From: Natrinema longum
GTDB taxonomy: Archaea; Halobacteriota; Halobacteria; Halobacteriales; Natrialbaceae
Direction: 5' to 3'
NCBI RefSeq assembly: GCF_017352095.1
Contig: NZ_CP071463.1
Location: forward strand, 2,418,001-2,482,000
Length of the DNA: 64,000 nt
Both the position numbers and the translations under genes were made by a program. The notes under the pieces are model-generated. The model worked only from the letters and a program-made list of their open reading frames with translations, was not told the DNA's origin and did not search any database. This document shows positions 1 through 32,476 of the stretch, in pieces (the first letter of the stretch is position 1; the number at the start of each line of letters is the position of its first letter).

Positions 1-91
1 GCCCCGTTTTCACCGTCGTAACGTATCGGTCTGTCTGCCGGTCCCTGGGCTTTTGCCGGTCGTACTCGGTCGTTCGTACGGGGTGGAAAGC

Positions 92-175
92 TATAGTAGC
101 AACTGAAAGTCATTGCGTTCCTGATCGCACGACAGCGTTGCGATCAGTGTGTCAATCGTTTCAGTTGCTACTATA
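92..175. repeat. Palindromic dispersed element, copy 1
   Basis: Perfect 17-base terminal inverted repeat (TATAGTAGCAACTGAAA at 92-108, its reverse complement at 159-175) enclosing a second perfect 9-bp hairpin (CTGATCGCA at 121-129, TGCGATCAG at 139-147; loop CGACAGCGT). A diverged copy with the same core lies at 32391-32476 and a minimal remnant at 7981-8013. No ORF fits inside. It looks like a miniature non-autonomous element or REP-like palindrome. I cannot assign it to a named insertion-sequence family from sequence alone. Confidence 0.8.
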
Positions 176-184
176 ACAAGACCC

Positions 185-355
185 ATGAGAATCGGAGAGC
201 GCTGTACGGTCTGTGAAACGCGCATCGGCAAGGGAGAGATCCGGTACTACGAGACGTGCGGTCGGGGACTCCACGAGCCGTGTGCGGAGGACAAAACGAC
301 GTTCGAATGTCGCCACTGCGGGGACGAGACGTGGATCGGGGCGGTCGAGTTCTGA
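185..355 (+). CDS. Small zinc-finger protein
   Basis: A 56-residue protein with two CxxC pairs (CTVC at residues 7-10 and CRHC near residue 42) plus an intervening C and an HEPC motif, giving enough Cys/His ligands for one or two zinc sites. It ends in an acidic tail, as is usual for haloarchaeal proteins. I start at the ATG at 185 because everything upstream in this frame is palindromic element 1. The role is unknown. Small zinc fingers of this kind in haloarchaea are usually annotated as hypothetical and may bind nucleic acid or a protein partner (inference). The element ends only 9 bases before the ATG, so it supplies the upstream region of this gene. Confidence 0.7.
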   Translation: MRIGERCTVCETRIGKGEIRYYETCGRGLHEPCAEDKTTFECRHCGDETWIGAVEF

Positions 356-24763: not shown

Positions 24764-26236
<1,473 letters not shown>

Positions 26237-26280
26237 ACAGACCGGGACTGGGGCGTCGCCCCAGCCCACCTTAGCGGTTT

Positions 26281-26339
26281 CACGTTCGATCGACCAGCGT
26301 CTGGCCGATCGGGCACCTTTGAACTACCGAGGCTAACAT
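26281..26339 (+). other. 16S processing stem, downstream arm
   Basis: CACGTTCGAT (26281-26290) and GAACTACCGAGGCTAACAT (26321-26339) are complementary to the upstream arm. They flank the mature 16S on both sides and close the loop that contains it. Confidence 0.65.
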
Positions 26340-26371
26340 GATACGCTCTGTCCGCCCGAGAGGGTGGACGT

Positions 26372-26443
26372 GGGCCCATAGCTCAGTGGTAGAGTGCCTC
26401 CTTTGCAAGGAGGATGCCCAGGGTTCGAATCCCTGTGGGTCCA
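26372..26443 (+). tRNA. tRNA-Ala (TGC)
   Basis: A 72-nt tRNA. Acceptor GGGCCCA pairs with TGGGTCC (discriminator A at 26443). The anticodon loop TTTGCAA carries TGC, and the T-arm GGGTTCGAATCCC is complete. It sits in the 16S-23S spacer, the usual place for tRNA-Ala in haloarchaea. The CCA end is not encoded. Confidence 0.97.
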
Positions 26444-26583
26444 TGTCTCGGAGGACGATCGAATCGTGCCCCTTAAGTGGGTTAGCCGATTTCGATCTAA
26501 TCCGAACAACGAACCGATGCACCACCCCGTGTAAACGCGGGTGGGAAGGGTTAATGCATGCCGCGTCTACGGCGTGCAGATGA

Positions 26584-26635
26584 GACCGTGTGTACGTGTA
26601 GTCCAGGCGTCCACTGGACCCGTTCCCGGGTCACT
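26584..26635 (+). other. 23S processing stem, upstream arm
   Basis: Contains ACGTGTAGTCCAG (26594-26606) and GGACCCGTTC, both complementary to 29615-29666 downstream of the 23S. Together they form the long helix carrying the second bulge-helix-bulge cut. Confidence 0.7.
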
Positions 26636-26675
26636 ACGTGGTTGTAACATCCGTTACGACTGCCGATCCGATGAA

Positions 26676-29590
<2,915 letters not shown>

Positions 29591-29614
29591 TTCATACTAC
29601 ATCGCATTGGATCC

Positions 29615-29666
29615 GTGACGCGAGAACGGGTCCGGACGCAAACTGGACTACACGTATACTACGGTC
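29615..29666 (+). other. 23S processing stem, downstream arm
   Basis: GTGACGCG..., CTGGACTACACGT and ACGGTC are complementary to the upstream arm at 26584-26635. Confidence 0.7.
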
Positions 29667-29720
29667 TTGGACACACCGACCGATATTGGAATGACGACGG
29701 TTCGATTCCGTTGATCGGCA

Positions 29721-29842
29721 TTACGGCGGCCACAGCGGCGAGGAACCTCCCGTACCCATCCCGAACACGGAAGATAAGCTCGCCTGCGTTACGGTGAGTA
29801 CTGGAGTGGGCGACCCTCTGGGAAATCCGTTTCGCCGCCACC
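29721..29842 (+). rRNA. rrf: 5S ribosomal RNA
   Basis: About 122 nt, beginning TTACGGCGGCCACAGCGG and closing with CGCCGCCACC so that the terminal helix forms. The internal CCCGTACCCATCCCGAACACG block is the archaeal 5S hallmark. It is the third rRNA of the operon, about 130 bases after the 23S 3' end. Confidence 0.97.
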
Positions 29843-29857
29843 ACTCATACTACTTTC

Positions 29858-32111: not shown

Positions 32112-32405
32112 ATGTCCGATCGATTGATGACGGTCAACGCGCGGACGACGCTGGACTACGTCGAGGGGAAAGCGATCGGCGAGAGTTTCGAGTGGGAGTC
32201 GGTCGCCGTCGTGAACGCGACCGCTGACCGCGAGAATCCGGACGGTGTTCGTCTCCAGTTCGAACTCGACAACCTCTCGGAGGCGCACCTCCCGAAGCAT
32301 ATGATCGAACTCGAATTGACTCCGGCACAGGCTCGTGCGGTGGCCGCTGATCTCGAAACGCATGCCGACCGTGTCGAAGACGCTGGGGGCGATAGCAGCC
32401 ACTGA
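32112..32405 (+). CDS. Haloarchaeal DUF6360-like small protein
   Basis: A 97-residue acidic protein, start MSDRLMTVNARTTLDY, followed by a beta-rich middle (SVAVVNATADRENPDGVRLQFELDNL) and a C-terminal helix (TPAQARAVAADLETHADRVEDAGGD). The layout matches a small haloarchaeal family I recall as DUF6360, with no known function. The end is unusual. The last residues and the TGA stop (32403-32405) lie inside the left arm of the second palindromic element, so the insertion defines the C-terminus. A TATA-like AGTATAAG upstream fits a leaderless mRNA. Confidence 0.75.
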   Translation: MSDRLMTVNARTTLDYVEGKAIGESFEWESVAVVNATADRENPDGVRLQFELDNLSEAHLPKHMIELELTPAQARAVAADLETHADRVEDAGGDSSH

Positions 32406-32476
32406 CAGTCACTGCACACCTGACCGCACGACAGCGTTGCGATCCGTGTGGAAATCGTTTCAGTGGCTCCTGTTGG
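32391..32476. repeat. Palindromic dispersed element, copy 2
   Basis: Shares the internal core CGCACGACAGCGTTGCGAT with copy 1, and the same right-arm context ATCGTTTCAGT. Its arms read AGCCACTGA (left) and TCAGTGGCT (right), against AGCAACTGA and TCAGTTGCT in copy 1. Both sides changed together, keeping the pairing. The inner hairpin is no longer perfect. The left arm overlaps the end of the preceding gene. Confidence 0.75.

Follow-up and report, generated by a model that had tools for sequence, protein, structure and literature searches.

The question raised by this locus is whether the long palindrome near its start owes its matching arms to selection on a folded form, or whether it is a mobile element whose copies brought the arms with them. 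The window, i.e., the whole stretch of 64,000 nucleotides that was analysed, corresponds to bases 2418001-2482000 of the single 3,588,874-base Natrinema chromosome (G000) and contains two copies of the element (Table 1). As an earlier note on this DNA had described, the ends and the inner hairpin of copy 1 are perfect, the 17-nt outer arms and the 9-nt inner arms (121-129 and 139-147) each being 100% complementary. The note had also reported that copy 2 keeps the core of copy 1 and differs from it by paired changes in the arms, and this proved accurate: the exact 19-base core is present in copy 2 (two occurrences in the window against 0.09 expected), the arms change from AAC/GTT in copy 1 to CCA/TGG in copy 2, and the outer arms of copy 2 (AGCAGCCACTGA and TCAGTGGCTCCT) are complementary at 11 of 12 positions. 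Folded as DNA, copy 1 was far better than shuffled sequences on both strands (z = -6.7 and -7.6), and the fold of copy 2 was much weaker (z = -1.3 and -2.6). The insertion of copy 2 is common to G000 and its closest relative, Natrinema ejinorense JCM 13890 (G061, locus L344), which is placed in the same species; copy 2 is the older, decayed one. The element is composed of two facing ends of approximately 33 bp each, with the end sequence TAGTAGCMACTGAAA, around a 9-nt loop, with almost nothing else and no ORF of its own. Empty sites in related genomes set the boundaries of the full units at 91-176 and 32390-32475, correcting the earlier limits of 92-175 and 32391-32476, and showed that the outermost base on each side, together with the adjacent TA, represents the target and its duplication.

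Table 1. Positions of the two element copies, their parts and neighbouring genes, counted from the first base of the window.
Feature	Position	Strand	Remarks
Copy 1, full 86-bp unit	91..176	+	Covariance model match G000:2418091-2418176, 102.3 bits
Copy 1, left arm	92..108	+	Opens with TA (target duplication), then TAGTAGCAACTGAAA
Copy 1, inner hairpin	121..147	+	CTGATCGCA / TGCGATCAG, 9-nt loop
Conserved 19-base core	126-144	+	Within the inner hairpin of copy 1
Copy 1, right arm	159..175	+	Perfect reverse complement of the left arm; closing TA is target duplication
Small Cys-rich ORF	185..355	+	Conserved in G010; start codon just downstream of copy 1
rRNA operon	24764-29843		16S, tRNA, 23S, 5S; ordinary
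DUF6360 gene	32112..32405	+	Last codons and stop within copy 2
Copy 2	32390..32475	+	Covariance model match G000:2450390-2450475, 91.1 bits

A search of the whole G000 genome with the 19-base core, allowing up to three mismatches, yielded 57 matches, compared with 0 for a reversed-pattern control. A covariance model based on 27 copies identified approximately 70-80 distinct places in this genome, many at 80-110 bits; its 128 matches do not equal 128 copies, because the palindrome makes strong copies score on both strands. In the sample of relatives, the model matched 27 of 27 same-genus genomes, six of nine other genera of the family and three of 24 genomes outside the family. The dispersed nature claimed for the element was thus upheld, with further copies in the genome and its relatives that carry paired changes. 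By BLAST, the element was found on 48 plasmid records from Natrinema, Haloarcula, Natrialba, Natronorubrum, Halomicrobium, Halostella and others, and a search of phage records gave no match. Among the matches listed on annotated records, nearly all fall where the gene table, which is incomplete, shows no gene. N. ejinorense carries eight identical copies, implying recent movement. The family is real and has been recently active in haloarchaea.

The mode of insertion was read from empty sites in N. ejinorense and G010, which are about 95% and 91% identical to G000, respectively, over one locus. The flanks of 40 copies were joined and used to search the three genomes, and 20 candidate empty sites were aligned; neither G010 nor N. 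ejinorense has copy 1 at the orthologous place. In clean cases, an empty site N-TA-N corresponded to a filled site N-TA-(TAGTAGC...GCTACTA)-TA-N, with TA duplicated at the target CTAG (pairs L157/L203 and L180/L205) or GTAG (L177/L199 and L037/L204), while some older or paralogous pairs were ambiguous. The outermost base of the element copies the target, being G in L177 and L037. Locus L190, with TC at both sides as a direct duplication, independently supports a 2-bp duplication. Recent copies in N. ejinorense are flanked by TA on both sides in 21 of 24 cases and by C...G outside these (i.e., CTAG) in 19 of 24, even against the rarity of CTAG in the window (28 observed, 62.6 expected from trinucleotides). 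A TA duplicated at CTAG is the signature that IS630/Tc1-mariner elements leave on insertion; IS630 prefers the TA inside CTAG and its family duplicates TA (PMC2170065, with its reference Tenzen and Ohtsubo 1991).

These features bear on two kinds of haloarchaeal repeat with which the element might be identified. The MITEs, PATEs and small mobile repeats (SMRs) of Haloquadratum walsbyi (PMC3119063) are, like the present element, transposase-free mobile repeats of haloarchaea. The earlier note had suggested an IS200/IS605-type or REP-type origin, i.e., an IS200/IS605-related PATE or a palindrome moved by a Y1 transposase, which would suit both the palindromic form and the richness of haloarchaea in IS605-type elements and PATEs. 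However, PATEs and IS605 elements have neither terminal inverted repeats nor a target duplication (PMC3119063), and the present element has both; an IS200/IS605-derived PATE was therefore rejected, and the suggestion as a whole retains a negligible probability. Membership in, or kinship with, the Haloquadratum SMRs, with a mobiliser of their own, is also highly improbable. SMRs resemble it in length (80-110 bp), in having conspicuous terminal repeats and many copies and in lacking a known parent. According to their description (PMC3119063), however, they leave no target duplication and their terminal repeats are unrelated to known transposons, and the present element differs in both respects. 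SMR identity was rejected on the basis of the TA duplication, the element being set apart by the descriptions of PATEs and SMRs rather than by their sequences.

A closer match was provided by IS630-family transposases (NCBIfam NF033545, Pfam DDE_3), which occur within the genus in G004, G016 and G026, with relatives of one of these proteins in 45 of 81 genomes of the family. The IS630 elements of the genus and family are approximately 1059 bp long with two overlapping ORFs, and their ends (TATAGTAG...ATTGCTCAC) are of the same kind as those of the short element. The sequences of these ends are N-TA-TAGTAACCGTTAGAA... and N-TA-TAGTAGRCGTTAGAAATAATTGCTCAC, sharing the layout N-TA-TAGTAR... with the short element. 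Its left end, TATAGTAGCAACTGAAAGTCATTGCACAC, is identical to the consensus of the IS downstream ends at 20 of 29 positions and to the best single IS630 end at 23 of 29, the similarity being moderate past the first 8-9 bases; three of the four element ends in the window rank among the window's seven best 29-mer matches to this consensus. The 1059-bp elements of Natrialbaceae (ends N-TA-TAGTARNCRYTAGAA...ATTGCTCAC), which have this layout and up to 23 of 29 bases in common with the left end, differ in that they encode a transposase and in that their two ends are less alike than the arms of the short element. At 86 bp, with 17-bp arms, no coding capacity, some 70-80 copies, a target duplication, presence or absence between strains and ends related to those of an autonomous transposon, the element has the attributes of a MITE. 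Given the TA duplication at CTAG and the similar ends of the 1059-bp IS630 elements, we regard it as a non-autonomous MITE of the IS630 type, whose arms are inherited from source copies and subsequently decay without constraint, and assign this reading a probability of about 0.86. The many copies, strain-specific insertions, TA duplication, IS630-like ends and absence of an ORF likewise agree with the proposal in the earlier note of a non-autonomous element driven in trans.

The note had further advised looking elsewhere for a matching transposase, of the IS200/IS605 type. IS630/DDE_3 transposases occur in related genomes, but none was detected in searches of G000, G005, G007, G009 and G010, and N. 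ejinorense has only a remnant. A resident transposase would be expected if the MITE were currently active, although a MITE does not strictly need one. When an autonomous parent was sought by means of the exact MITE end, the matches listed comprised MITE-type ends only. Since no IS630 transposase was found in G000, we infer the mobiliser from the ends and the target; possible explanations are its loss, a location on a plasmid or the action of another TA-duplicating enzyme. The last of these, a TA-duplicating transposase from outside the IS630 family (the IS427 group of IS5 is an example of another such family), would fit the presence of recent copies in several genomes that have no IS630/DDE_3 transposase, but we consider it unlikely, as the end sequence and the CTAG layout of the MITE match those of same-genus IS630 elements.

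The paired arm changes had been taken in the earlier note as a sign either that the folded form is selected, as RNA or DNA, or that recent copies of the element carried it. Covariation between copies was clear at the family level: over 27 copies the score was 0.145, compared with 0.086 in shuffles (0 of 500 as high) and 0.02-0.06 for slid structures, and 32 two-sided cells were counted against 13.5 in shuffles. Such strong covariation, together with the stable fold of copy 1 and the conserved 19-base core, would be in line with a structured RNA or a DNA hairpin with a host function (regulator, terminator or protein site) whose fold is selected at each site. However, changes at fixed loci were nearly all one-sided. 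At 13 insertions common to G000 and N. ejinorense in the same orientation, the outer stem showed 39 one-sided and six two-sided changes (3.3 expected if the arms were independent), three of the latter keeping a pair, and the inner stem showed 37 and one (2.1 expected). At these insertions, divergence was 11.4% for the element and 5.6% and 8.1% for the flanks; as the flanks are partly coding, the higher value for the element is not necessarily a sign of faster mutation. Across 133 copies, outer-stem pairing dropped with the divergence (d) of the remaining element and tracked (1-d)^2, as without selection, up to approximately 14%; beyond this it stayed above the curve, probably because older copies derive from other source sequences. 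The numbers of G-T and A-C mismatches were similar (70 and 53 in the outer stem, 71 and 78 in the inner stem), so that no transcript strand was clearly favoured. A search of Rfam returned no family match, only a chance-level match to a miRNA, and the copies are strain-specific. Selection of the fold at each site is thus very unlikely. The one-sided changes at shared sites, the decay of pairing and the similar mismatch counts demonstrate that the paired changes originate in source copies and are inherited by later copies, in agreement with the second of the two possibilities.

In each genome, the copies with the best scores mostly carry arms that match perfectly and have a lineage-specific sequence, namely CCGCTG in G004, G005 and G007, CAACTG in G009, G014 and N. 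ejinorense, CTCTTG in G015 and CCACTG in others. In one group (L078, L079, L081-L086 and L089), the arms TAGTAGCCACTG and TAGTAACAACTG consistently differ at two positions, indicating that perfect matching is not strictly required for spread. In the mechanism that we propose, an IS630-family transposase acting in trans would most likely excise the MITE and insert it at TA, preferably within CTAG, duplicating the TA; the duplication and the target were observed at the insertion sites, and the enzyme is the putative part. Each lineage would have active source copies with mostly matching arms of the four sequences above, and new copies would take their arms from a source and then decay without constraint. 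Inheritance from sources followed by free decay produces covariation across the family without selection of the fold at each site. The matching arms of the sources themselves might be due to an exchange between arms through the hairpin or to a transposase that prefers matched ends.

The orientation of shared insertions is relevant to this exchange. Among 18 insertions common to G000 and N. ejinorense with both flanks matching, the element was reversed relative to the flanks in five (L018/L352, L037/L185, L040/L333, L060/L194 and L319/L367). In L018/L352, L040/L333 and L060/L194, both copies have rare states in common and no other N. ejinorense copy is as close, which argues convincingly that at least these three pairs each represent a single insertion that flipped in place. 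The remaining pairs, L037/L185 (two differences, with ten other copies equally close) and L319/L367 (17 differences), could have arisen from separate insertion events that hit one site. In-place inversion is therefore a probable and unusual feature of the family, and arm exchange via the hairpin would also account for it. A self-correcting, flipping palindrome, in which arm exchange by template switching or recombination inverts the interior and copies changes from arm to arm, is a tentative explanation to which we give somewhat less than even odds. If it is true, perfect arms and family covariation would arise without structural selection on RNA or DNA, and compensatory changes in dispersed palindromes would not by themselves be evidence of such selection. 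Correia elements of Neisseria provide a precedent, their inversion having been reported by Elbeyioglu et al. 2016 according to PMC5874624 and the review PMC10969869. The apparent inversions would make the MITE an archaeal counterpart of these invertible elements, and promoters nearby might be affected.

Related systems are known from other hosts. RUP of pneumococcus duplicates TA and is mobilised in trans by an IS630/mariner transposase. MITEs of the RUP and Stowaway types resemble the present one in the TA duplication and in trans-mobilisation by an IS630/mariner transposase but differ in sequence and host, and the present MITE is nearly all palindrome. Stowaway MITEs are derived from mariner (PMC6881990). 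The Correia repeat enclosed elements (CREE) of Neisseria are likewise short and non-coding, with terminal repeats, many copies and a mobiliser that they do not encode, and they insert mostly at TA (PMC2649163); they differ in their unrelated sequence and in the domain of their host, and they carry promoters and an IHF site. No paper naming the present family was found in the literature searched. The family is new, and its kind, a non-autonomous element with a borrowed transposase, is already known. Descriptions of haloarchaeal MITEs are sparse, and the present one is abundant and shows recent activity throughout a genus with many sequenced species. It also illustrates clearly how covariation across a family could pass for the mark of a structured RNA, and how insertions at orthologous sites of two conspecific genomes allow differences inherited from the source to be told apart from changes that occurred on site.

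Regarding the neighbouring genes, the ending of the DUF6360 gene that is supplied by copy 2 is also found in N. ejinorense, which shares the insertion, and the matches in most other relatives end before it. A Pfam search with the small Cys-rich ORF beside copy 1 gave no match.

Several variant arrangements were also observed. In G010, a 114-bp variant subfamily (L164, L170, L172, L174 and L178) has a longer inner hairpin and the arms TCGTTG/CAACGA, which are nearer to the IS630 end sequence. Head-to-tail MITE neighbours with a spacing of -1 to 3 bases occur in G007 (C5:50920-51091, C48:137695-137865 and C49:27970-28144). Fragments directly adjoin complete copies at G000 C1:3039552-3039599 and in the flank of L184, which suggests nested or clustered insertions. 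Finally, the IS630 elements at L286 (1487-2545) and L293 (945-2003) have each inserted into a MITE, in both cases 18 bases short of its right end.
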